From: Ardenticatenaceae bacterium
GTDB lineage: Bacteria; Chloroflexota; Anaerolineae; Promineifilales; Promineifilaceae
Direction: 5' to 3'
Assembly: GCA_020634495.1 (NCBI GenBank)
Contig: JACKBR010000033.1
Span: forward strand, 1 to 54,641
DNA length: 54,641 bases
Positions 25,776-48,087 of this stretch are shown here, one piece after another. A model generated the notes under the pieces. That model ran no database searches and was not told where the DNA came from. It saw nothing but the letters and a program-made list of their open reading frames with translations. Position 1 is the first letter of the stretch. The number at the start of each line of letters is the position of its first letter. A program made the position numbers and the translations under genes.

Positions 25776-26879
25776 ATGACTTTTCAGACATCGGGCTATG
25801 ATAAGCGGAAAAGAGCACAACTCCGAAGTTTAATGATCCAACACTTTGATATGCAAGATATTAAAGACTTATGTTTTGATCTAAGGATTGATTTTGAGAA
25901 TCTGGGTGCAGGGAGTAACAAAAACGAGAAAGTTCGGGCGTTGATCCTTTTCATGGAGAATCGCCTTGAGTTGAACCAACTTGTTGAAGTTACGAAGAGT
26001 GTTCGGCCACAAGTGGAGTGGCCAAGTTTCCCTGGATTGGAACCTGAAGATGTTTCATTTGAGAAAAATAAGGTAGATCTGGAGGTTTTAGAGGCTACAT
26101 TTGGGATTCAGACTGGTTTTACTGACTTAGATGGTGTTATCGGCGTTTTACATAATGGTTCATTAAATATTGTTGCAAGTAGGCCAGGTTTAGGCAAATC
26201 ATCTTTGGTAACCACGATCACAATGGTTGCGACGATGCGGTATGAGAAGCGGGTTGCGTTTTTCTCACTTCAAATGTCTAATAAACATTTGCAAAACAGA
26301 ATAATATCTTCCGAAGCAAGAATAGAATATCAACGACTCATCCGTCGAAATTTTCATGAGTTTGAATTGCCAATTTTTATGGAGGCGATTGGACGCTTGG
26401 CTGAATCACAACTCATAATAGTTGATGACGCTTTTCTCACACCGATGGCAATTCGGGATATGTGTCACAAGATTTATAATGATAAGGGCTTAGACTTAAT
26501 AGTAATTGATGGAATTGAACTTATTCAATCTCATACTCATTACCCAACTATTTTTGAGGAAAAGAATGAAATTGCTCGTTATTTAAAGAATTTAGCTCGC
26601 GAGCTGAACATACCAATTTTGCTTACCTCTCAAGTATCCGTCCAGGTGGAGGAGAGATTTGCAAGACAGCCTTTATTAAATGATTTGCCTGGTGATATTG
26701 GTCAATTTGCTGATACTGTTATCTTTATTAAAAGGGAAGAAGATTCCGTAGACAGGTCAATGATCGCTGAAATACAATTAGTAAAGCACAGAGATGGTCA
26801 CGAGGGATATATCAATTTGTATTGGGATACCAAGCTTATGACCTTCAAGAATCTTCAGCGACTTGAAGTAAACCTCTAA
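25776..26879 (+). CDS. EAD-like domain fused to a DnaB-type RecA-fold ATPase
   Basis: 367 residues. Residues about 1-75 look like an effector-associated (death-like) adaptor domain: LRSLMIQHFDMQDIKDLCFD, NKNEKVRALILFMENR, LNQLVEVTKSVRP. Residues about 100-367 match the DnaB C-terminal helicase domain: Walker A ASRPGLGKSSL, FFSLQMSNKHLQ, Walker B LIVIDGIEL, LARELNIPILLTSQVS and GQFADTVIFIKREED. The DnaB N-terminal collar domain is absent and the LRESG motif is altered to LPGDI. The gene is AT-rich, lacks the ACGGCCGT motif and uses codons unlike its neighbours, which suggests acquisition. EAD domains occur in bacterial conflict (defence) systems, so a sensor/effector ATPase is a reasonable guess. 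RBS TAGGAA. Confidence 0.75.
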   Translation: MTFQTSGYDKRKRAQLRSLMIQHFDMQDIKDLCFDLRIDFENLGAGSNKNEKVRALILFMENRLELNQLVEVTKSVRPQVEWPSFPGLEPEDVSFEKNKVDLEVLEATFGIQTGFTDLDGVIGVLHNGSLNIVASRPGLGKSSLVTTITMVATMRYEKRVAFFSLQMSNKHLQNRIISSEARIEYQRLIRRNFHEFELPIFMEAIGRLAESQLIIVDDAFLTPMAIRDMCHKIYNDKGLDLIVIDGIELIQSHTHYPTIFEEKNEIARYLKNLARELNIPILLTSQVSVQVEERFARQPLLNDLPGDIGQFADTVIFIKREEDSVDRSMIAEIQLVKHRDGHEGYINLYWDTKLMTFKNLQRLEVNL

Positions 26880-27331: not shown

Positions 27332-27850
27332 TTATCCACCAGAACCACTGAGTCGGGCAATTTGTTGTCTCAACCGGATCGCTTCTTGTTCAAGTTCGCG
27401 AATTCGCTGCTGAAGCTGGTGGGTAATCGCTTCGCTGTGCTGTAATGCTTCTTCCAGTTCACGATAGCGCTGCCAATTAAGTCGCCAAACAACAAGTTGA
27501 GGTCGGTTTAGATGTAAGCGGCGAATGTGAAACCAGCCTTGTCGGGTTGAGCCTTCCAGCCGTCCGCTGGCTGTTAGTTTGAAATGTACTGCAGGATCAT
27601 CTTCGCCGGGGTGTAAGAGATACAAACTCTTGGGGTCATTTTCGTCGGGCCAATAGTTGCCCTTAAAACGATTGCAGTGAACACAGGCATAGACTAAGTT
27701 ACCCAGCTTGTCACTACCGCCTTTGGTAACGGGGCGATAATGGTCTATCTCTAGCTGACCACCAATGTCAGATTCAGATACGCCGCAATAGCCGCAGGAG
27801 AAGCCGAAAGCCTTGCGTATGGCCTGCCGATTAGTGGCGGTGATGCTCAT
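27332..27850 (-). CDS. HNH endonuclease with C-terminal coiled coil
   Basis: 172 residues. HNH domain in the first 65 residues with CGYCGVSE, LEIDHYRPVTKGGSDKLGNL and YACVHCNRFKG: two Cys pairs for structural zinc and the His-Asn-His core. The middle region (about 70-130) is of unknown type, and residues 130-172 form a Glu/Gln-rich coiled coil. Its start overlaps the upstream coiled-coil gene by 4 bp (ATGA), so the two are co-translated. It could be a free-standing nuclease or a small defence or homing-type enzyme. Confidence 0.85.
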   Translation of the reverse strand: MSITATNRQAIRKAFGFSCGYCGVSESDIGGQLEIDHYRPVTKGGSDKLGNLVYACVHCNRFKGNYWPDENDPKSLYLLHPGEDDPAVHFKLTASGRLEGSTRQGWFHIRRLHLNRPQLVVWRLNWQRYRELEEALQHSEAITHQLQQRIRELEQEAIRLRQQIARLSGSGG

Positions 27851-29189: not shown

Positions 29190-30194
29190 CTATTCCGCAA
29201 TCGAGGATGCCATCAACTCCAAAACCATCTGCTCCGTGGCGGCGGCGCGGGCCTGCCAGGGCTGGATGAAGGGGGCGGTTTTGGGGTATTGGCTGATGAG
29301 TTCCTGGTAGCTGGTTTGCCATCTTTGGCAGGTTTCTTGCAGGGCAGTGAGAAGTAAAGGGAGGGCGTCGTACTGCACGGCCGTTCGTAACAAATTCAGC
29401 AGCATCATCTCCCGGCTGCCAAAACCACGCGGCAGGTCAAACTGGCGGCCTAGCTGCCCGATGTCGTCCCGGCTGAGATAAATGCCGCTAAAGGCAGGTA
29501 GCAGCAGGAAGTGGGCAATTTCCTTGAAGCCGGTTTTGTCATTGGCCAGAATATTTTGCATTGGAGGGAGAAAGGAGGGTAGAGGAGAAACGGCCGTTTC
29601 CCCAAAATGTTCCAACAATAATGCCTGGATTAGCCGGGCCAGTTCAGCAAATAACGAATTGGACTGGTTCTGGATGGCCAGCAGACAGGGCACACTCCAG
29701 CGCAGGACATGCGCCTGTAAAAATGCTCGCTGTGTAGATTGAAGCTGTTTGGCTTGCTGAGGTGAATCTGCCTCCCAGGCATCCGCTTCCTGGTTGGTAA
29801 GGAAGCCAAGAAAAGCCAACGCCTGGCCAAAATGGTCGGCTTCCGTTTCGGCTGGCGCAGAGCCAAAGCCATGCTGACGAAAAAATTGACCTACAACGGC
29901 CGTTCTTTCACCGCCCACCAGCCCATCGCTGCTCAAAAAGAAACTTTCATAAGCAAATACGTTGAACTGGAACAGCGCATGATGGCTGGCAGCGGCGGCG
30001 TCAGCGTTGAATGGCTTGGGCAGAACGGCCGTTAATTCCGGTATTTGTTGGACGTATGGTAGGGAAACGGCCGTAATCCCCTGCAAATAAAGCTGGCTAA
30101 ATAAACGGTAGCTGTAACTTCTAGCGCGCGCTTGTTGAGCTTGGCTTAAGCCTGACCCACTCAGTGTGGGGGAGCCGGGTTTGGAAGAAGGCAT
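29190..30194 (-). CDS. TorD/DmsD-family molybdoenzyme chaperone
   Basis: About 334 residues, all-helical. It shows the pattern of cytoplasmic maturation chaperones for molybdopterin enzymes (ETEADHFGQALAFLGFLTNQE, with FLQAHVLRWSVPCLL further on). ATG 30194 gives a 74-bp overlap with the upstream YeeE/YedE gene; no better start is visible downstream, so either the overlap is real or one gene has a shifted end. In context it most likely serves the molybdopterin oxidoreductase at 35481. Five ACGGCCGT copies. Confidence 0.75.
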   Translation of the reverse strand: MPSSKPGSPTLSGSGLSQAQQARARSYSYRLFSQLYLQGITAVSLPYVQQIPELTAVLPKPFNADAAAASHHALFQFNVFAYESFFLSSDGLVGGERTAVVGQFFRQHGFGSAPAETEADHFGQALAFLGFLTNQEADAWEADSPQQAKQLQSTQRAFLQAHVLRWSVPCLLAIQNQSNSLFAELARLIQALLLEHFGETAVSPLPSFLPPMQNILANDKTGFKEIAHFLLLPAFSGIYLSRDDIGQLGRQFDLPRGFGSREMMLLNLLRTAVQYDALPLLLTALQETCQRWQTSYQELISQYPKTAPFIQPWQARAAATEQMVLELMASSIAE

Positions 30195-30582
30195 ACAAAT
30201 ACATTCCTGTGAGTGCACCAAAAAAAGTGATGACCATTAAAAAGTTACCGGCACCAATATGGGCATAAATGGGGCCGGGGCAAGCGCCAGTGATCGCCCA
30301 GCCCATGCCAAAAATGGTGCCACCCACAACGTTTCCAGGGTGCAACGGCCGTTCCTTGATCACAATTGACTCCCCTTCCACCGTCCGCGCCTCCAGGCGA
30401 CGAATCAGAAAAACGGAAACCAGGCCAACACCAATTGCCGAACAAATGACCAGATACATGTAAGGCTCTTTGAATTGAAACATATCATTGATGCGGAACC
30501 AGGAAATTACCTGTGATTTAATCAACACAATCCCAAAATAAATGCCAACCAGCAGCGTCATCAGTTTGTTTTTAACAGTCAT
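30121..30582 (-). CDS. YeeE/YedE-family sulfur transporter subunit (second)
   Basis: 153 residues, four hydrophobic segments, with the family motif GMGWAITGACPGPIYAHIGAG carrying the conserved Cys of YeeE/YedE (TsuA-like) proteins that import thiosulfate or sulfur compounds. RBS AGGAG lies 6 bp before the ATG and directly abuts a CTATCCGA element. Works as a pair with the gene at 30698. Confidence 0.85.
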   Translation of the reverse strand: MTVKNKLMTLLVGIYFGIVLIKSQVISWFRINDMFQFKEPYMYLVICSAIGVGLVSVFLIRRLEARTVEGESIVIKERPLHPGNVVGGTIFGMGWAITGACPGPIYAHIGAGNFLMVITFFGALTGMYLYAFFQTRLPHTEWVRLKPSSTSAR

Positions 30583-30592
30583 GGCAAACTCC

Positions 30593-30702
30593 TAAGAATC
30601 TATCCGAAATAAGTCACAGAGGAAAAAGAGAATCTAGAGTCTTTGAACCTAACCTCAAAAACCTCTGTGTACTCTGTGGCTAATATTCAGATAGGCATTA
30701 AG
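30593..30702. repeat. CTATCCGA element, copy 2 of 3
   Basis: Fills the gap between the two YeeE/YedE genes. Its right end carries the TAA stop (30698-30700, minus strand) of the upstream gene, and its left end touches the AGGAG ribosome site of the downstream gene. Confidence 0.85.
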
Positions 30703-31189
30703 GTAAAAAGAGCGGCAAAATAAACCAGGTTGAAATCAACCCACCAACAAAAAAGAAAACTGTGGCCACCAGGCTAGAAAGATTCAGCGCCGAGATGCCC
30801 ATGATGGTGTGCCCGGAGGTACAGCCACCCGCATACCGCGTGCCAAAGCCAATCAAAATCCCGCCGATAAAAAGGCCAATGACCCCCAGCGGAGAGGCGT
30901 AAAATGCAGGCAAAAAGGCACCTGGCTCGCTAGAAAGTAAATAATTTCCCACAAAGCCGCCAATTAACACGCCAATGACAAAAACAATACTGCGCGTATG
31001 ATCGCGCCAGTTGTAATCCTTGCTTAAATAAGGCAATTTGGTATTGGGCATACAAGCAGCACCAATGTGGCGCAAACTGCTAGAAATGCCAAAATTTTTG
31101 CCGGTAAGCAACAGCAAAATGGGTACCGTAAGGCCGATGAGGGGACCAGAAACATACCAGGGCCACGGCTCTAAAAGCCATTCTAACAT
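30698..31189 (-). CDS. YeeE/YedE-family sulfur transporter subunit (first)
   Basis: 163 residues with about five hydrophobic segments and the signature [19 protein letters not shown] (conserved Cys). ATG 31189 follows AGGAGAGAAAG; the frame is open further upstream but that part overlaps a hairpin and repeats. Half-length YeeE proteins usually occur as two adjacent genes, as here. It lies directly downstream of the metallo-beta-lactamase/rhodanese gene, supporting a role in importing sulfur substrates. Confidence 0.85.
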
Positions 31190-31280
31190 CTTTCTCTCCT
31201 TGCTTATGTGGTTGTTGATCAGGCTTAGGTCATTACAAAACATCCGACATGCAGATGACTTCCATTTTTGCAATGCCAAA

Positions 31281-31319
31281 GGAGCAGGAAGAATCAGCCA
31301 GACTGCCTCTTCCTGCTCC
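31281..31319. terminator. Perfect 12-bp hairpin downstream of the MBL/rhodanese gene
   Basis: Arms GGAGCAGGAAGA and TCTTCCTGCTCC, loop of 15 nt, with only a short T-run on the minus strand. It probably ends or protects the transcript of the gene at 31550. Confidence 0.5.
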
Positions 31320-31382
31320 CCAAAACTATTTCTTCTCTTCTTGCCGCAAGCGCTAAGTACAAACAACAAAAAATTGATGATT

Positions 31383-31551
31383 GTAGCCGCAGTTTCTTGC
31401 TGCGTGCAGGTGGTGCGGAAAGAATCCGCGGCGGCGCACCCAACTTAGAATCTATCCGAAAAAGCCACAGAGGAAAAAGAGAATCTAGAGACTTTGAACC
31501 TAAACTCAAAAAACTCTGTGCACTCTGTGGCCAATATTCGGATAGGTATTT
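31383..31551. repeat. CCGCAGTTTCTT repeat copy 2 and CTATCCGA element copy 3
   Basis: Repeat B (31383-31437) followed by the third CTATCCGA element (31445-31551). The element's end supplies two bases of the TAA stop (31550-31552) of the MBL/rhodanese gene on the minus strand. Confidence 0.8.
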
Positions 31552-32977
31552 AGATATTGCAGACGTTTCCTTCGCCATCTAGCATGGGGAAACCCGCAGC
31601 TTCCCAGGCTTCCATGCCGCCAGTCACGTTGTACAAATGTTTGAAGCCTTTGCGCTTCATGATGCTAATGGCGGTGCTAGAGCGTTTGCCCGTGGCGCAG
31701 GTCACTGCGACGTGTTGTTCTTTTTGCAGGTTGAGGGTGTCTAGCTGGGCCGGGCTGGTGAGCTGGGGCACCATACGTGTAAAGGGCAAAAAATGGGCTT
31801 TTTCGATGTGTCCTTCGTCCCATTCTTCAGAATCGCGTACGTCTAGCACTTGCAGGCCGTTAACGGACAGTTTGTGATGCAAATCATGAACGTCCATTTG
31901 CTGAACGCATTCAGCATGGTTGCCTGCTTCCATCCAGGCATCAATACCGCCAACCAGGTAGCCTGCCACGCGGGTGTTCAGGGCGATGAAGGCCATTTTG
32001 TAGATTGCTTCCTGGGCTTCTTCATCATGGTCCATTAGCAGAATCAGGGGAGCATCATCGGGGGTCATCCAGCCAACGCGCTGTTCAAATTCGCTGCTAG
32101 AGAGCTGCACGTTGATGGAACCGGGGATGTGCCCTGCGCCGAATGTGGCTGAGGAACGGCCGTCCACTACCACAGCCCCATCCCCCATCATCTCTGTAAC
32201 CTGGCTGGCCGTCAGCGGTGTAGCTTTGGGAATCTGCTTGGTCAGCGGAATTTTACCTTGATTTGTCGCCACAATGTTCAGAATGTTGGCTGGTTTCAGC
32301 GGCTGATCATCCTGCATGTAGCGCACAAAGCGGTCTTTGTCTTTAATTTTTAGTGAATCATTGAAGCGTCGTTCATACCCAACCGTAGTGGCAACCTTGC
32401 CACTTGTCACGCGGCCTCAGGTAGACCCGGCAAGATGGCCGGGATACACCTCAACGTGGTCGGGCAAATTCAAAAAGCGGGGAATAGAGACATCAAACAA
32501 GACCGGCGCACCTTCGTCGCCAGCCTGAGCCAAGTCTGGGCGGGCCACGTCACCTACCATCACAAAATCGGCCGTTAAAATAAACCAGGGCTCGTCGCCG
32601 CGTGGAAAATCATAAACCAGCAAATTGATTTGCTCAGGACGGTGGCCGGGGACATGGACAATCTCCATGCCCACGCCGCCCATGCGAATCATGTCGCCAT
32701 GTTTCACGCGGGTGGCGTCATAAGTGATGTCTGCCAGCTCTGGCAAGATTAACTCGGCACCAGTTGCCTCTGCCAACCAGGTAGCTCCCGAAACATGGTC
32801 GGCATGGCTGTGCGAATCGATGACGTAGCGAATTTTTGACTTTTTCTCTTTGGCCATGTCGAGATAGGGCTGAATGTCCCACAGCGGATCAAAAACAGCG
32901 CATTCGCCTGTTTGTTGACAGCCAATCATGTAGGCGGCACACCCTGTCTCTTCACGGATTAAGGTTTCAAACCACAT
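31550..32977 (-). CDS. Selenocysteine-containing metallo-beta-lactamase/rhodanese protein (CstB-like persulfide dioxygenase/sulfurtransferase)
   Basis: 475 codons when the in-frame TGA at 32419-32417 is read as Sec187. N-terminal metallo-beta-lactamase domain with SHSHADH (His56, His58, Asp60, His61), His112, Asp143 and His181, then two rhodanese domains: a first without active Cys (about 265-360) and a second with TCATGKRSS (Cys427). The UGA lies in PGHLAGST-(TGA)-GRVTSGKVATTVGYERRFN; the family has PGHGAGSxCG there, so UGA replaces a conserved Cys six residues after the metal ligand His181. Both halves are in the same frame with no indel, and a SECIS-like hairpin follows the UGA. S. aureus CstB has this layout and oxidises persulfide to thiosulfate; that function is likely here too. 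Without read-through, a GTG at 32410 would give only the rhodanese part. Confidence 0.88.
32387..32419 (-). promoter_or_regulatory. SECIS element: UGA plus hairpin with AGGU loop
   Basis: On the minus strand, TGA (32419-32417), 12-nt spacer, arm AGTGGCA, loop AGGT, arm TGCCACT: seven perfect pairs. The loop begins 19 nt after UGA and contains G in its first two bases, meeting the usual bacterial SECIS rules. E. coli fdhF has an AGGUCU loop at a similar distance. The hairpin lies inside the coding sequence, as required for SelB-dependent decoding. Confidence 0.8.
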
Positions 32978-35304: not shown

Positions 35305-35480
35305 AATCACCTCCTTCCAGGCGGAACCATGCCGGGTTCGCGCCGGAAATTAAGATTAATAAACAGTATTCAGTTCTTGCAGAATTTGGAATCTACTCGC
35401 GTCGAACGGTTTTCGGGCAGCTTGTATGCCTCTTTGATCGGTTTGAGCGGCCGTTTTAGCCAATACGCCGTCTCGTCCCA
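35305..35480. other. Gap between molybdopterin oxidoreductase and DUF1641 genes
   Basis: 176 bp, no gene seen. Contains a near-miss GCGGCCGT motif at about 35448 and, at its left edge, the strong ribosome site for the DUF1641 gene. Confidence 0.5.
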
Positions 35481-36265
35481 TCAGGGCTTGTATCCATGGC
35501 CCGACCGCGTCAAACCCTTCCACTCCTCATAAACTTCCATAGATTTTGTGGTATCAACCCAAACATCACCATGCTTGTCGTGCGGCTTCGCTTTGCTGAC
35601 GCTGGTTGCTTTTTGCAGCCAGCAGTGCGCCACTCAGCGGGTCTGGATGCACGCGTGGGTCAAATTCTGATGCACGCCCATCTTTCCACCAGATGCGGTC
35701 GGTGTCTGGATCAAACGTGCTCCAGGCCGCGCCGCCCTTGAGAATGTTCAGCTTGTGCTCGCTGCCATTTTTCCTCCAGCCGTGCCAGGGCAGACATGCC
35801 GGGGTTGACACCCATGTCCTCTTGCAGCCGCCAGCGCTAAATGATGGCTCATTGCCACGACGCCCGGCATGCCTCGGTGACCCACCTTATCGACAAGTAG
35901 CCAATCTCGGTTTCCACGCGGATGAGGTCGCCCGTGGCCACGCCAACCGCTGGGCATCGCTGGGATGCATCCAGACGGGATTTTGTGGCTGATTTCGTAT
36001 AACCATTTGGCGTTGGCGCTGCGCGTGTGGATGAGCGTAGGCGGAAGTTGGGCAGCAGCAGCATCTCGCCCTGGCTGCGGTCGATGTTGTCGGGATGGAC
36101 GTGGCTTTGAGCGGCGGGGATGGTATATCGCGCTCCGGCCAGCCCCAGTCGTGCATAGTGGCGCTGAAAAATTCCAGCTGCGGCTGGGGTGCCCAGCCGG
36201 TTTGGCCTTGCCATCGACAACAACGCCCACTGGGAGCCGTCTTTTTGGATGCGCGCATTTTCATC

Positions 36266-36337
36266 AATTGTGAATTTTGAATCGTGAATTGTGAATTGTG
36301 AATTAATCTCCAATCTCCGATCTCCAATCTCCAATTC
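36266..36337. repeat. GTGAATT/GGAGATT repeat inside the molybdopterin oxidoreductase
   Basis: Tandem TGTGAATT words joined to AATCTCC/GATCTCC heptads, the same families seen between genes. On the minus strand it encodes ELEIGDRRLEINSQF then TIHDSKFTIDEN without a stop, linking NPNYVPYEK to the downstream domain. Confidence 0.75.
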
Positions 36338-37305
36338 CTTTTCATACGGCACGTAGTTGGGGATTCACCTCAAAGACGCCGTATTTGCGCATGTAGGCCA
36401 GGGGTGAGGTTTCGGCAGCGGCGGCTTCGGGCAGGCCGGGCACGCTGTTCTCAAAAATCCACTGGTAATACTCGTCTACGTTGATGATCTCCCCCGGCCG
36501 GTACGGGCTTTCAAACCATTGGCGAATGCCCAGGCTGCCATCCGGGTCCATGCGCACCGACAGTTCAATCCACCACTCATTCTCCTCCCACACCTCGCCC
36601 GGATTGGCTTCCCAGGTGTATTTCACCTTTTGGCCGAGGCGTTCCAACGCCACCCGGCGCACCGGCTGCCGGAACGCAATCCACTGCCCGGCGTGCGTCT
36701 CCTGGCTCATCAGGTCATGCCGCTCGCCGGCGTGCCCCATGGGCAGGATGTAGTCGGCAAACCAGGCCGACTCATTCCAGGTGGGGGTCAGGGCCACGTG
36801 GCATTTAATCTGCTCTTCGTTGCGCAGCGATTTGAGCCACATAAAGCCGTCGGGATTGATCCACATCGGGTTGTAGACGCGGGTGAAGTAAACGTCGATG
36901 TCGCCGCGTCCTTCTTCCAGGAAATGGGGCAGCAGGAAGCTCATTTCGTAATGGGCAAAGTCCATTCGTGGGGCAGATGCAGCTCGTTCCAGGTGTCGCC
37001 AGCAGGCGGGCTGCTGAACGGCTGGGCACAAATTTGCTCCAGCTGTTGGCATTCACCCGCCGGGCGTGCCCACGCCCCTGTTAGCACATTCAGGAAGAAC
37101 AAACAGCGTGCCACTTGCCAACCACCGAGGTTCCCAATTGATGCGCTGCGCCAGGTGTGGGTGGCCTAAACGGCCGTCGCAATTCCCAACCAACCGCGCC
37201 GTCTCCACAATCCGCTCCACCGGCACCTGAGACTCCTCCGCTGCCCGCTCAAAGGTGAATTCAGCGTAAAGGGCTTTGAGTGCTTTGTCGAAATAATCAA
37301 AATCA

Positions 37306-37370
37306 GGAGACTGGAGATTGGAGATTTGAAGTTGCAACTCTAATTCCAATCTCTAATCTCCATCTCTAAT
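37306..37370. repeat. GGAGATT-family palindrome inside the molybdopterin oxidoreductase
   Basis: GGAGACTGGAGATTGGAGA on the left and AATCTCTAATCTCC-type words on the right. On the minus strand one frame encodes LELELQLQISNLQSPDF and joins conserved sequence on both sides (RRWVNWQET and YFDKALKALYAEF). A TAG is met in the other frame, so a compensating one-base change is needed. Confidence 0.7.
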
Positions 37371-38390
37371 TGCTTCTAAGTCTCCTGCCAGTTCACCCAG
37401 CGGCGCACAAAATCCCGGTCATACAGGTCATTCTGGATGAGGTGGTTGGCCATGGCCAGCAGCACGGTAGATTCGCTGCCGGGCCAGGTGGGCAGCCAGA
37501 CATCACTCATGCTGGCCGTGTTGCTCAGGCGCGGATCAAAGGTGATGATCTTGGCCCCGGCCATCTTGCCCTCGATAATGCGCTGGGCGTGGGGGTTGAA
37601 GTAGTGGCCCGTCTCCAGGTGGCTGGAGATGAGCAGGATGACGCGGGCGTTGGCATGGTCGGGGCTGGGCCGGTCGAAGCCGCCCCAGAACATGTAACCG
37701 GCCCGCGCCCCGGCCGAGCAGATGTTGGTGTGGCTGTTTGACCATCGACGCCCACGCCTGGATGGCGCGGTTGGTGTAATGGTCTTCGCCAGGACGGCCG
37801 ACATGGTACATGATGCCGTCTTTGCGCTTCAGGCGGCTCTCGCGCATTTTGGCGGAGATTTCGCTGACGGCTTCATCCCAGCTGATGCGCTTCCACTTGC
37901 CTTCGCCACGTGCACCGACGCGCTTGAGCAGGTAGAGGATGCGTTCGGGGTCGTAAATTTGGTTGTGGGTGGCGGGGCCTTTGGCGCAGTTGCGCACGGC
38001 TGCCGGGATGTTTGGGGTTGCCCTCAAACTTTTTGATTTCCAACGTGGTTTTATCGACGTAGGCGAGCAGGCCACAGGCGCTTTCGCAGTTGAAGCAGAC
38101 GGTGGGGACGAGCATGTAGCGGCGCGCTATTTTTTGCGGCCACGCTTTGCCATCATACTCAACCCAGTTGTCCCAATATTCGGTTGGGGGGTATTGGCTG
38201 AGACGGCCGTCTGGCTGTTTCACGGTCAGCATGTGCACGTCGGACGGGGGGACTTCGTTAAATTCCGGCAGGGCGGTTCCGGCGACGTTGGTAGGTTGGG
38301 TGGGTAACGGCCGTTTCCGTTCTGGCGGCGCACCGACCTTGAGCATGTTACTAAGAAAGTTAATTACTGAACGATTTTCATTCATTTATT

Positions 38391-39528: not shown

Positions 39529-41221
<1,693 letters not shown>

Positions 41222-43511: not shown

Positions 43512-44624
43512 TTACTGATATCTTTGCGCTTGCCATGATACAAAGGCAGCCGCAAAATCATTGGCCAGCAGGGTAGACGGGGCGTCCAGATACACTTCTG
43601 GTTTGGCCGCTGGTGGCAGCCCGCGCGGGTAGCGCATGGCGATTTTGCTAAACACGCCGCCGCCATGCCCAATATAACATTCTGGCTCTGGCGCGTGCGG
43701 CGGGGCTGGCTCGATGAGACCCAACCGGGCTAAAATGGCGTCTGCGGCCGTTTTGCCCTGAGCCACAGCCGCGCCAGCCGCACGAGGAAACGGCGTTTTG
43801 GCCGCATCCCCAATGACAAACAGATTTGGCTCATCGCTTTCAAACTGGGGTGAGACGTTCACCAGCGGCCCATCCCCAGGCAGATGGCGCAGCAAGGGAC
43901 TGCGCACGTGCGGTGGCACCACCAGGGCCAGATCAAACGGTTGGAAACGGCCGTCTCCACTCACGATCTTATTTTCACCACTCTTGCGCCAATCTGGCAG
44001 AAACCGGGTGTGAATTTGCACATTTAGTTCGGCACAAGACCGTTCCAGGTGTTCTGGAATGCCGCTGCCAATGTTGATTAACGGCCGTTCCTCCGGCGTG
44101 GTGATAAAAACCGCCACCTCTTTTTCTGCTTGCCGGTAATGGTCTGCCAGCTGCATTGCCAGGCTAAACGGGGCAGGTGGGCAGCGGTAAGGCAGTCCCG
44201 CCACAATCACGGCCAGCCTGCCAGACACCAGGCTGTTTATCGCCTCTGTGGCGGCTCCGGCGGTGCTGGGGCTCCAAAATGGGATGATGTTTGGCTGTTG
44301 GGGAACGGCCGTTGTGTCCAAAGCCAGTCCCGGAGCCGCAATGACAAAATCGGCCGTCATCGAGCTGCCATCCACCACAACGCCGCTGCCGCTGAGCTGT
44401 GTTGCTTCCCCGGCTTTTACCGTAATGCCTGCCAACTGAAGCGACTGCTGCCAGTCCGCGGGCTGTGTTTGTCCCAGCGCCGTGGCCAGCGTACCGGGTA
44501 AAAATTCGGCCGTGCCGTTGCGCTCAATCAAAACAATTTCTAATTTATTGTCGGCCTGCTTTTGCAGCTGGGTGGCGGCGGCATGGCCACCGGGGCCAGC
44601 GCCAATTACAATAATCCGGTTCAT
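43512..44624 (-). CDS. SQR-like NAD(P)/FAD-dependent oxidoreductase (intact)
   Basis: 370 residues, no breaks. FAD site IIVIGAGPGGHAAATQL at the N-terminus, a PYRCPPAPF segment near 163 typical of SQR/FCSD-like proteins, second site ...NLFVIGDAAKTPFPRAAGAAVAQGK, and a C-terminal ECYIGHGGGVFSKI. RBS AAGGAGAAAAACG. May act as sulfide:quinone oxidoreductase or a related quinone reductase; the cysteine set differs from the broken gene at 33161. Confidence 0.85.
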   Translation of the reverse strand: MNRIIVIGAGPGGHAAATQLQKQADNKLEIVLIERNGTAEFLPGTLATALGQTQPADWQQSLQLAGITVKAGEATQLSGSGVVVDGSSMTADFVIAAPGLALDTTAVPQQPNIIPFWSPSTAGAATEAINSLVSGRLAVIVAGLPYRCPPAPFSLAMQLADHYRQAEKEVAVFITTPEERPLINIGSGIPEHLERSCAELNVQIHTRFLPDWRKSGENKIVSGDGRFQPFDLALVVPPHVRSPLLRHLPGDGPLVNVSPQFESDEPNLFVIGDAAKTPFPRAAGAAVAQGKTAADAILARLGLIEPAPPHAPEPECYIGHGGGVFSKIAMRYPRGLPPAAKPEVYLDAPSTLLANDFAAAFVSWQAQRYQ

Positions 44625-44786
44625 CGTTTTTCTCCTTCATCTGTTCATAAAGATGGTAGCAAAAATGTTGAGTTAGGGGAAATTGGTTTCATTTATGGCT
44701 AAATTTTCGTTGGAAAGTACGGCCGTTTGAGATACCCTTGTTGCCGTGATCATGGAAGAATCAAATCCACACTGGAGCAAATTAAA

Positions 44787-45692
44787 ATGCTGAATTTTTT
44801 ACCGGCCCCCATCATTGGCGGACTGGTTTCAATTGCCATTTTTTTCAATACCCTGTTTTTGTGTTTACTCATTTATCTGGTAGCCATTGCTAAATTGCTT
44901 GTGCCGGTTCCCGCGTGGCGCGCCCAATGCACCAAAGCCGCCATTTGGCTGGCAGAAACCTGGATCAGTGGCAACAGCGCCTGGATGTGGCTCACCCAGC
45001 GCACCAAATGGCGTCTCTCCGGTGTAGAGGGCCTGCGCTACGATGATTGGTATTTGGTGGTTTGCAACCATCAATCCTGGGTCGATATTTTTGTTTTGCA
45101 GCACATTTTCAACAAACGCATTCCATTTTTAAAGTTTTTCCTCAAGCAAGAACTAATCTGGATACCGGTGATTGGCCTGGCCTGGTGGGCACTAGACTTT
45201 CCCTTTATGAAACGGTACTCCAAACAACAGTTAGCCCGCCGCCCTGAGCTGCGTGGCAAAGACCTGGAAACCACCCGTAAAGCGTGCGAAAAGTTCAAAG
45301 CAACGCCCGTTTCGGTGATGAATTTTTTGGAAGGGACGCGCATAACGCCTGCAAAGCATCAGAAGCAAGCCTCGCCTTACCAGCGTTTGCTAAAGCCCAA
45401 AGCTGGCGGCATTGGCTTTGTGTTGGGGGCGATGGGGGATCAAATTTCCAGCATGTTGGACGTCACCATTGTCTATCCGCAGGGTATACCCACCGCCTGG
45501 GACTTTTTTCGCGGCCAGGTGCGCGAGATTGAGGTGATTGTGCAAAAACGGCCGATTCCCGACGAATATCGCAACCAGGATTACCAAAACGATCCTGAAT
45601 TCCGCGAGGCGTTCCAGGCCTGGGTTCGTGACTTGTGGCAGCAAAAGGATGCGCTGCTGGGTGAGCAGCTGCCCGTCATGGAACCGATGTGA
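44787..45692 (+). CDS. 1-acyl-glycerol-3-phosphate acyltransferase-like (YihG/PlsC family)
   Basis: 301 residues. One or two N-terminal membrane helices, then the acyltransferase motifs VCNHQSWVD (HX4D) at about 90-98 and NFLEGTR at about 185-191. The length and the pattern WWALDFPFMKRYSK match YihG-type acyltransferases of the inner membrane. ATG 44787 is the best start; the extension upstream has no ribosome site. Acts in phospholipid acylation. Confidence 0.85.
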   Translation: MLNFLPAPIIGGLVSIAIFFNTLFLCLLIYLVAIAKLLVPVPAWRAQCTKAAIWLAETWISGNSAWMWLTQRTKWRLSGVEGLRYDDWYLVVCNHQSWVDIFVLQHIFNKRIPFLKFFLKQELIWIPVIGLAWWALDFPFMKRYSKQQLARRPELRGKDLETTRKACEKFKATPVSVMNFLEGTRITPAKHQKQASPYQRLLKPKAGGIGFVLGAMGDQISSMLDVTIVYPQGIPTAWDFFRGQVREIEVIVQKRPIPDEYRNQDYQNDPEFREAFQAWVRDLWQQKDALLGEQLPVMEPM

Positions 45693-45834
45693 CGGGTAAA
45701 CGCCGCAAGCATTTCGTTTCTAAAATCCCATTACACAATCCTTACATCTTTTTTACGTGGCTATTGCAATCGGTTGGTATGCTTCCAGCCATATTGTGAA
45801 AAAATTATCAAACCGTAAAAGTTGAGGTAAGATT

Positions 45835-46188
45835 GTGTTTAAATCGTTATTTGGCCAGGTAAGAGGGGGAACGGCCGTAAAAAACATCTCCCCCGCAGAA
45901 CTACAGCGACAATTAGACAGCAAACAGCCCGTACTGGTATTAGACGTACGCCAGCCAGAGGAATATGCCCGCGATGGGCACATTAAAGGGTCTCGGCTGA
46001 TGCCCTTGGGTTCCCTGCGGGCGCGGGCCGGTGAACTGCCGCTCGATACCCCCATCGTATGTGTTTGTCGCTCTGGGGCGCGCAGCTACACTGCCTGTGA
46101 GCAGCTCAGAATGCAAGGCTTTGAAGACGTCAGCAACATGGGCGGTGGCATGATTACCTGGAAGCGTTCTGGCTTTCCAACAAACTAA
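45835..46188 (+). CDS. Single-domain rhodanese
   Basis: 117 residues starting at GTG 45835 behind GAGGTAAG. Rhodanese fold with VLVLDVRQPEEYARDGHI and the active loop VCVCRSGARSY (Cys about 77). A small sulfur-carrier or sulfurtransferase, fitting the sulfur theme of the region. The short hydrophobic N-terminus is not a signal peptide. Confidence 0.88.
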   Translation: MFKSLFGQVRGGTAVKNISPAELQRQLDSKQPVLVLDVRQPEEYARDGHIKGSRLMPLGSLRARAGELPLDTPIVCVCRSGARSYTACEQLRMQGFEDVSNMGGGMITWKRSGFPTN

Positions 46189-46213
46189 GCCTCATCCTAA
46201 AAACCGCAAGTAA

Positions 46214-46279
46214 AGGACGCGGATGAATGCCGACGACGCTGATTTTTATCCGCGTTCTCCAGCATTTGTCCGCGTCCTA
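46214..46279. repeat. GGACGCGGA palindromic repeat
   Basis: AGGACGCGGA at 46214 and GTCCGCGTCCT at 46269 bound internal GACGCTGATTTTTATCCGCG words. Related to 23052-23113. Confidence 0.7.
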
Positions 46280-46320
46280 TTTTATTTTGGCACACGCCAT
46301 CTGTAGACAAAGAGAAAACG

Positions 46321-48087
46321 ATGACCAATTCCCACGAGCCATCCATTTTAAGCAAACCACAAGCAGCTAGCCTGCGAAGCATCTTGCCTGCCTGGCATTG
46401 GCTGCACCAATATCCTCGTGAACATTTGGTGGGCGACGTGTTGGCTGGCTTTATCGTGGCCGTGATGCTGGTGCCGCAGGGCATGGCGTATGCGCTGCTG
46501 GCTGGCTTGCCGCCCGAAGTGGGGCTGTATGCCAGCATCTTGCCCCTCATCATTTATGGTTTGCTGGGCAGCAGCCGCACGCTGGCGGTGGGGCCGGTGG
46601 CGATTGTGTCGCTGCTGGTGGCGACGGGCATCGCGCCGCTGGCTGAAGTGGGCAGCGGCCCGTATTTACAGTTGGCGCTGACTTTGGCCTTGTTGGTGGG
46701 CATCATTCAGGCGTTGATGGGTTTGGTTCGGCTGGGTTTTTTGGTGAACTTTTTAAGTCATCCCGTTCTGGCCGGGTTTACCAGCGCGGCGGCACTGGTC
46801 ATTGGTTTTAGCCAGCTTAAACATTTGTTGGGTCTTGCCATGCCCCGGTTAGAATTTTTTGAGCTGCTGCATTATGCCTTTACCCATTTGCCAGAAACCA
46901 ATTTTGTGACGCTGGCGCTGGGCGGCGGGGGTATTTTGATTTTGCTTTATTTTAAGGTTGGCCTGGGGAAGCTGCTCAAGCGGTGGGGGGTGCCATCGCA
47001 GTGGGTGCTGCCCATTACCAAGTCTGCCCCGCTGGTGATTGTGGTTTTAGGCACGGGCCTGACATGGGGCTTGCGGCTGGATCAGCAGGCGGGGGTGGCC
47101 ATTGTGGGAGATGTGCCTGCCGGTTTGCCGTTCTTAACGCTGCCTACGTTTAATCTGGAATTGTGGCGGCAGCTTTTGCCCACGGCGCTGGTGATTAGTT
47201 TTGTGGGCTACATGGAGAGCATTGCGGTGGCCAAGTCATTGGCCAGCAAGCGGCGGCAAAAGGTTTCGGCAAACCAGGAGCTGATGGCTTTGGGGGCCGC
47301 GAATCTTGGCGCTATGTTGACGGGGGGCTATCCGGTGACGGGCGGTTTTAGCCGGTCGGTGGTGAATTATGATGCGGGGGCGAACAGTGGTTTGGCTTCA
47401 ATTATTACGGCCGTTCTCATTGCGCTCACCGTTATTTTTTTGACCCCCATTTTTTACTTTTTGCCTCAGGCGATGCTGGCGGCAATTGTGATTGTGGCCG
47501 TGGCTGGGTTGGTGGATGTGAAGACGTTCCGGCATGTGTGGCGCTACAACAAAGCCGATGCTGCCTCTTATTTGGTCACTTTTGGGGCGGTGCTGATTTG
47601 GGGGGTAGAAAATGGCATTTTGCTGGGAGTTGGCCTGGCGATGCTGCTCTTTATTTGGCGCAGCAGCCGACCGCATGTGGCGGTGGTGGGGCGTTTGGCC
47701 AACAGCGAAATTTATCGCAACGTGCTGCGGTATCAGGTGCAGTGTTGGCCAGAGGTTGTGGCCGTGCGCATTGATGAGAGCCTTTATTTTGCCAACAGCA
47801 AGTTTTTAGAGGATACGGTGCTGGGCCTGGTGGCCGACCAGCCTGAGGTAAGCCATTTTGTGTTGATTGGTACGGCCGTAAATTTCATCGATGCCAGCGC
47901 CCTGGAAACGTTGGAGTCGCTGCTGCGCCAGCTAAAGGATGCGGGGGTGCAGCTGCATCTGGCGGCAATTAAGGGGCCGGTGCTGGATCGCCTGCGGGCA
48001 ATTGGTTTTGTGGAGCATCTGGGGGAGCAGTTTGTCCATCTAACCACCCACGACGCAATGCGGGCGATTGGCGTTGTTACAGATTAA
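46321..48087 (+). CDS. SulP-family sulfate/anion permease with STAS domain
   Basis: 588 residues. About 10-12 hydrophobic segments with the SulP signature VPQGMAYALLAGLPPEVGLYAS near 52-73, AKSLASKRRQKVSANQELMALG, and a C-terminal STAS domain (about 470-588, VAVRIDESLYFANSKFLEDTV, GTAVNFIDASALETLESL). It is likely to carry sulfate or bicarbonate; the neighbouring rhodanese and sulfur genes favour sulfate. Confidence 0.92.
   Translation: MTNSHEPSILSKPQAASLRSILPAWHWLHQYPREHLVGDVLAGFIVAVMLVPQGMAYALLAGLPPEVGLYASILPLIIYGLLGSSRTLAVGPVAIVSLLVATGIAPLAEVGSGPYLQLALTLALLVGIIQALMGLVRLGFLVNFLSHPVLAGFTSAAALVIGFSQLKHLLGLAMPRLEFFELLHYAFTHLPETNFVTLALGGGGILILLYFKVGLGKLLKRWGVPSQWVLPITKSAPLVIVVLGTGLTWGLRLDQQAGVAIVGDVPAGLPFLTLPTFNLELWRQLLPTALVISFVGYMESIAVAKSLASKRRQKVSANQELMALGAANLGAMLTGGYPVTGGFSRSVVNYDAGANSGLASIITAVLIALTVIFLTPIFYFLPQAMLAAIVIVAVAGLVDVKTFRHVWRYNKADAASYLVTFGAVLIWGVENGILLGVGLAMLLFIWRSSRPHVAVVGRLANSEIYRNVLRYQVQCWPEVVAVRIDESLYFANSKFLEDTVLGLVADQPEVSHFVLIGTAVNFIDASALETLESLLRQLKDAGVQLHLAAIKGPVLDRLRAIGFVEHLGEQFVHLTTHDAMRAIGVVTD

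Follow-up and report, generated by a model that had tools for sequence, protein, structure and literature searches.

Predicted UGA-encoded selenocysteine in a CstB-type persulfide dioxygenase/sulfurtransferase

The window analyzed here (the whole stretch of DNA, 54,641 nucleotides) contains on the minus strand, at positions 31550–32977, a gene that very probably encodes a genuine selenoprotein, namely a CstB-type persulfide dioxygenase/sulfurtransferase in which the UGA of codon 187 would be translated as selenocysteine (Sec) by means of SelB, tRNA-Sec and the hairpin that follows it. The initial annotation had proposed a UGA-encoded Sec in a CstB-like MBL-rhodanese protein, and this proposal is supported by the exchange of TGA and Cys codons at one column, by a conserved, covarying hairpin and by the Sec genes of relatives.

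The gene comprises 475 codons, from the ATG at 32977 to the TAA ending at 31550, and encodes an MBL persulfide-dioxygenase-like domain, a degenerate rhodanese and a rhodanese domain. Its only internal stop is the TGA at 32417–32419 (minus strand), which confirms that two same-frame MBL-rhodanese segments are separated by nothing but this codon. The TGA is codon 187, predicted to specify Sec in the context YPGHLAGST-U-GRVTSGK, and it occupies the column of Cys in CstB-type relatives; Pfam finds Lactamase_B before it and two Rhodanese stretches after it. If the TGA is taken as a stop, the gene falls into an N-terminal ORF of 186 aa (32417–32977, minus strand) with the MBL domain and the ligand residues H56, H58, D60, H61, H112, D137 and H181, and a C-terminal ORF of 286 aa (31550–32410, minus strand), which is what a gene caller would see, with a GTG start at codon 190. 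Since the UGA looks like a stop, gene callers truncate the gene, and the selenium enzyme seems to have gone unlisted. The TGA had been said to replace the Cys of the motif PGHGAGSxCG; it does stand at the Cys column of the family, but this form of the motif belongs to many distant relatives, and the Sec clade and its nearest Cys proteins have PGH(L/V)AGST(U/C)GR. The distance of six residues between Sec187 and a metal ligand was borne out, the ligand residue being His181.

Homologous loci were collected in several searches. The first scan, with one genome per species, returned 18 loci: L001–L005 (69–92% identity; MAGs of Anaerolineae, Chloroflexota or Chloroflexi) carry TGA as codon 187 without any further stop, and L006, L008 and L009 (32–36% identity) have TGC at this column. 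In the second search, of 56 genomes from the order of G001, 15 genomes had a match of 57–92% identity covering codon 187, all with TGA; fourteen loci fetched at 38% identity or less have TGC or TGT. The third search sampled 396 genomes from the class, with matches at E 1e-100 or better and the best four candidates per genome scored (a further search was done likewise at E 1e-95). It found the TGA form in at least 13 genomes, including L081–L084 (75, 70, 62 and 48% identity), and two matches of 41–42% identity without the stop. Taken together, TGA was present at codon 187 in all 19 other genomes with a match of at least 48% identity covering the codon (48–92%), and all 34 more distant loci have a Cys codon, TGC or TGT. 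The close relatives therefore agree with the TGA of the window instead of carrying TGC or TGT, and the column holds TGA or Cys without exception in 53 sequences (19 with TGA, including the window, and 34 with Cys). The Cys set omits L009 (TGC), L104 and the second matches in G046, G015 and G044 (33–34% identity); L087 and L105 overlap the genes of L051 and L084. Besides its TGA gene, genome G007 has a second C-terminal half of 55% identity, the locus L080, which lies at the edge of a contig and stops short of column 187. No further internal stop was found in the TGA-form genes apart from that of L063, where codon 466, close to the end, is also TGA.

A protein search gave 6056 matches, of which the best 120 were examined. 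Ninety-four of them span residue 187 (40–53% identity), 92 with Cys and two with an alignment gap at this position; the other 26 are fragments beginning after residue 187 (61–85% identity). Among the matches listed, the Sec clade is represented by C-terminal pieces only and the nearest Cys proteins have 49–53% identity, so that in protein databases the enzyme of this environmental clade appears as C-terminal fragments. Such fragments, together with the frames open on both sides of the TGA and the GTG located 6 nt after it in the window, would also be expected if the TGA were a true stop and an MBL half and a rhodanese half were made separately by termination and re-initiation. We consider this split gene very improbable: codon 190 is GTG in only three of the 20 Sec sequences (GTC, GTT or GCC in the others), the fragment matches have seven different start points along the query, from 190 to 221, and immediately behind the TGA, G188 and R189 are retained in 20/20 Sec sequences, G188 also in all 34 Cys loci. 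It also leaves unexplained why the codon is TGA and not TAA or TAG in all 20 sequences, why it stands exactly at the Cys column, and why it is followed by a constrained hairpin.

That hairpin, a predicted bacterial SECIS at 32387–32404 (minus strand), has the sequence AGTGGCA-AGGT-TGCCACT, with arms at 32404–32398 and 32393–32387 and the four-base loop at 32397–32394. The 7-bp hairpin with an AGGU loop 12 nt after the TGA was thereby confirmed at 32404–32387. Bacterial SECIS elements are hairpins situated just after the UGA with a G in the apical loop, and both features are found here; the loop is AGGT, AGGC or AGTT and starts 19 nt after the UGA. The six inner pairs form in all 20 Sec sequences and the outermost pair fails in seven; overall, 95% of 140 pair cells form, compared with 26–67% when the partner strand is slid by 1–3 columns. 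Two pairs have changes on both sides, both contributed by L084 alone; in L082, one of these two pairs is A-U. These changes also alter the protein (G193A in L084, G193D in L082), which indicates that the RNA is held as the protein drifts. The folding energy alone is unremarkable, with a z-score of -0.73 for the 47 nt of the window and of +0.35 to -2.73 for five relatives, and Rfam at gathering thresholds gave no matches within the window.

Synonymous sites were compared in 19 of the 20 Sec sequences (the partial L065 was dropped) and in the 34 Cys loci. The mean synonymous identity of the Sec sequences is 0.452 over 446 codons, and codons 193–196 are the only four of the 446 without any synonymous change (identity 1.0). 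The mean of 0.979 for codons 192–196 is the highest among 348 five-codon windows and was reached in none of 200,000 random five-codon draws. The Cys loci show no such block, with values of 0.25–0.62 at the same codons. The presence of TGA in 19/19 genomes and the synonymous constraint at codons 192–196 together indicate more than chance. In the most distant TGA form (L084:1501–2874, 48% identity) the hairpin keeps its shape and differs in sequence; the Cys locus L085 has a 5' arm similar to that of L084 and lacks the 3' arm, possibly reflecting an independent Cys/Sec switch.

The search for selA, selB and tRNA-Sec suggested in the initial annotation was run on the genomes of relatives, and the machinery is present in most of those with the TGA form. 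Among the 19 such genomes, selA was found in 16, selB in 14 and tRNA-Sec, counted at E 1e-9 or better, in 14. The selA count includes genes in pieces or partial in G031, G402 and G159, of which that of G159 is below the curated cut-off. Eleven genomes have all three and 17 at least one, and in G025 and G054 none of the three was found at the thresholds used. All six TGA-form genomes tested have selD over the cut-off. For the genomes behind L001–L008, selA is over the cut-off in 8/8, selB and selD each in 7/8 and tRNA-Sec over the gathering score in 7/8, the exception being G006, where the gene has TGC, for selB and selD, and G008, also with TGC, for tRNA-Sec. Fifteen comparison genomes in which only the Cys form was found contain selA (14), selB (15) and tRNA-Sec (13) as well, and thus the presence of the machinery does not tell Sec from Cys forms; judging from these genes, Sec is widely used in the lineage. 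The organism of the window presumably decodes Sec like its relatives; ARAGORN predicted no tRNAs within the window. The selD loci L043–L049 are those of G001–G005, G007 and G008. Six of these genes (G001–G003, G005, G007 and G008) have one in-frame TGA themselves, and in G004 selD is in two pieces, with the TGA in the N-terminal one, as expected for a Sec-containing selenophosphate synthetase.

An open frame alone would fit equally well with UGA being decoded as another amino acid, for instance Cys or Trp, owing to a code change or a suppressor tRNA. This is extremely improbable, given that TGA terminates 14 of the 36 long non-overlapping ORFs of the window, the N-terminal half itself among the 14, and so is an ordinary stop elsewhere in the window; moreover, most TGA-form relatives have Sec genes, and Sec, unlike a code change, predicts a local hairpin under constraint.

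A tree was built from 16 of the 20 Sec sequences (without L052, L062, L063 and L065) and 32 of the 94 listed protein matches that span residue 187. In it, 15 of the Sec proteins form one group (support 84/91, not starred) next to Cys proteins of 49–53% identity; L084, whose hairpin differs in sequence, stands separately on a long branch. The Sec and Cys labels need at least two changes on this tree, and hence Sec is not essential to the family. Both two gains of Sec and one old gain with losses are possible histories.

The protein of the window is 90–92% identical to those of two relatives. Its AlphaFold model (one chain, an alignment of 48 rows) has pLDDT 90.2 and pTM 0.87, with residues 188–192, just after Sec187, modelled at pLDDT below 50. 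The best PDB matches of the model in Foldseek are 3tp9 (TM 0.84) and the chains of 3r2u (0.62–0.63). The architecture is that of CstB-type proteins, an MBL domain and two rhodanese domains, one of them with an active Cys, and the metal-ligand residues of this type are present: H56, H58, D60, H112, D137 and H181 are retained in 19/19 Sec sequences and H61 in 18/19. The rhodanese residues C427, G430 and R432 are likewise retained in 19/19. Twenty-four NCBIfam models match the protein, none of them reaching its cut-off.

The gene lies among genes of sulfur and molybdoenzyme metabolism. Downstream, also on the minus strand, are a YeeE/YedE-type sulfur transporter half (Sulf_transp, 30698–31369), a second such half (Sulf_transp, 30121–30582; homologous to L005:12050–12511) and a TorD/nitrate reductase delta-like molybdoenzyme chaperone (29190–30221). 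Further genes of the minus strand are the catalytic subunit of a molybdopterin oxidoreductase (35412–38385), here in several frames, and an Fe-S and NrfD electron-transfer subunit (39529–41221), here in two frames. A pyridine-nucleotide-type FAD gene at 33.2–34.5 kb, between the molybdoenzyme and the Sec gene, is by our reading sulfide:quinone oxidoreductase-like. The locus L005 has the Fe-S/NrfD subunit, the molybdopterin catalytic subunit, the Sec gene, the two YeeE/YedE halves and the TorD-like chaperone; the best NCBIfam match of its molybdopterin subunit is PhsA (198 of 694 bits, below the cut-off). In 17 of 20 Sec loci, the searched flanks (for most loci, about 1.5 kb or less) contain at least one of a molybdoenzyme, a YeeE/YedE and a TorD gene; those of L057, L064 and L084 contain none of the three. 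Two of nine Cys loci searched (L094 and L096) have a molybdoenzyme upstream. Elsewhere in the window, the region 43512–48087 holds further sulfur genes, for an FCSD-like flavoprotein, a single-domain rhodanese and a SulP-type sulfate permease, and at 25776–26879 there is a DnaB-type helicase domain protein that also has the effector-associated domain EAD7; an HNH endonuclease ORF (27332–27850) is close by.

Between 33161 and 41221, the FAD oxidoreductase, molybdopterin and Fe-S/NrfD genes lie scattered across several frames. In L005 the molybdopterin and Fe-S/NrfD genes are intact, the latter as one ORF of 578 aa; the molybdopterin subunit, of about 1000 aa, is intact in L001, L003 and L004 too. 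The breaks in the window therefore point to indel errors in the assembly or to decay. The in-frame TGA could in principle have the same origin, the codon really being TGC or TGT or the gene being a decaying pseudogene. The probability of this is practically negligible: the same TGA is found in 19 other assemblies, where the frame is otherwise open, which contradicts such an error for the clade, and the identity of 90–92% to two relatives and the retained ligand residues also speak against it.

In the selenoprotein that we propose, Sec187 would take the place of the loop cysteine of HxAGSxCG, six residues after the ligand residue His181. The Cys427 rhodanese domain, Sec187 or both would accept sulfane sulfur from thiosulfate or small persulfides, the resulting persulfide or selenenyl-persulfide would be offered to the iron site of the MBL domain, and O2 would oxidize it to sulfite. 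Thiosulfate would reach the enzyme through the adjoining YeeE/YedE pair; the molybdenum enzyme would oxidize the sulfite or trade electrons with the quinone pool in some other way. This scheme presumes that the MBL site binds iron, that persulfides are oxidized there and that Sec187 carries sulfane sulfur; the genes together would make up a cassette for importing thiosulfate and handing sulfite or electrons over to a quinone-linked molybdoenzyme.

The catalytic part of this scheme is tentative. The persulfide dioxygenase-rhodanese BpPRF, the one such protein compared by alignment besides 3tp9 and 3r2u, has a gap at the Sec loop, so that at least one persulfide dioxygenase does without this loop; in addition, the rhodanese domain of the Sec protein retains its own C427. 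For these reasons the proposed role of Sec187 as the catalytic persulfide carrier stays an inference. That it is a protein-bound selenenyl-persulfide carrier feeding the non-haem iron site, in a glutathione-independent persulfide oxidation, seems to us possible and rather unlikely. A non-catalytic Sec187 in the same selenoprotein, serving as a protective or structural redox site (a selenenylsulfide) or as a sensor, with the oxidation carried out through iron and Cys427, is a serious possibility that falls somewhat short of probable. It agrees with the gap in BpPRF, with the low model confidence of the loop after Sec187 and with cysteines of AcPDO, which are read as a likely disulfide and a glutathionylation site, protective and far from iron, in the part of PMC6060420 available to us. 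Against it, TGA or Cys in 53/53 sequences is strong conservation for an accessory site. The Sec/Cys exchange found in nature offers a direct handle on the role of the conserved loop cysteine of CstB-type proteins, as Sec, Cys and Ser forms can be compared.

The inventory in Table 1 of PMC13188914 (2026) lists 119 prokaryotic selenoprotein families or subfamilies, and in that table no MBL protein or dioxygenase appears among them. No such family is named in the accessible parts of PMC12013277 (including part of its Table 3), PMC2398784 and PMC9312934, and the full-text literature matches listed, a scope with preprints and most subscription papers outside it, contain no report of a Sec persulfide dioxygenase or Sec MBL-rhodanese. 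The earlier statement that no Sec form of this enzyme was known thus agrees with the literature searched. The sequences make a well-supported case for a new selenoprotein family, the predicted Sec form of a known enzyme type, which would add to the 2026 inventory (as given in its Table 1) a family in the MBL fold with persulfide oxidation as its probable chemistry. The novelty looks to lie in this fold and chemistry, and the decoding mechanism looks standard.

Several known systems share parts of this design. Blh (NF040641, bifunctional sulfur transferase/dioxygenase) also combines a sulfurtransferase and an MBL dioxygenase in one protein, but its profile scores 55.1 of the 625 bits of the cut-off and matches in the MBL part only (residues 9–244 against profile positions 150–406). 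The rhodanese-like selenoprotein forms 1–5, NF041203 and TsoB (NF045694) are likewise selenoproteins with rhodanese-like domains (PMC13188914, Table 1). In contrast to these, the Sec described here belongs to the MBL domain (context HLAGST-U-GRV), and Cys427 is retained in the rhodanese domain; the Sec motifs of forms 1–5 (UxxS, UxxG, CxU and UxxxxU) do not occur at U187 (STUGRV), and the scores for NF041203 (39.9 of 115 bits) and NF045694 (32.4 of 805 bits) are far below the cut-offs.

ETHE1 and BpPRF have the MBL fold in common with the Sec protein (4chl, 4ysb and 5ve3–5ve5 were matched); BpPRF has one rhodanese domain and ETHE1 has none. In hETHE1, C247 lies well after the last ligand. Because of this position and the gap in BpPRF, a correspondence of Sec187 to C224/C247 was set aside. 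These two cysteines are described as essential in ETHE1-type enzymes in the part of PMC6060420 available to us.

The closest solved structures, by sequence as well, are 3tp9 from Alicyclobacillus (phmmer E 9.1e-72) and 3r2u from S. aureus (E 3.5e-53), the latter being presumably CstB itself. In the phmmer alignment, Sec187 stands opposite residue 225 of the 3r2u chain; should the offset of 24 come from an expression tag, this residue would be Cys201 of CstB. The 'C201' of PMC10433728 was considered as this CstB residue and rejected, as it belongs to human SQR. CstB converts two persulfides to thiosulfate, according to the available text of PMC9774590. Both structures have the architecture and predicted fold of the Sec protein, with 29–31% identity in the structural alignment, and share with it the HGAGSxCG loop and a C-terminal rhodanese with Cys. 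The neighbors of the Sec gene, a molybdoenzyme, YeeE/YedE and a TorD-like chaperone, are unlike those of CstB-type proteins, and where these proteins carry the loop Cys, the protein described here has TGA and, as predicted, Sec.
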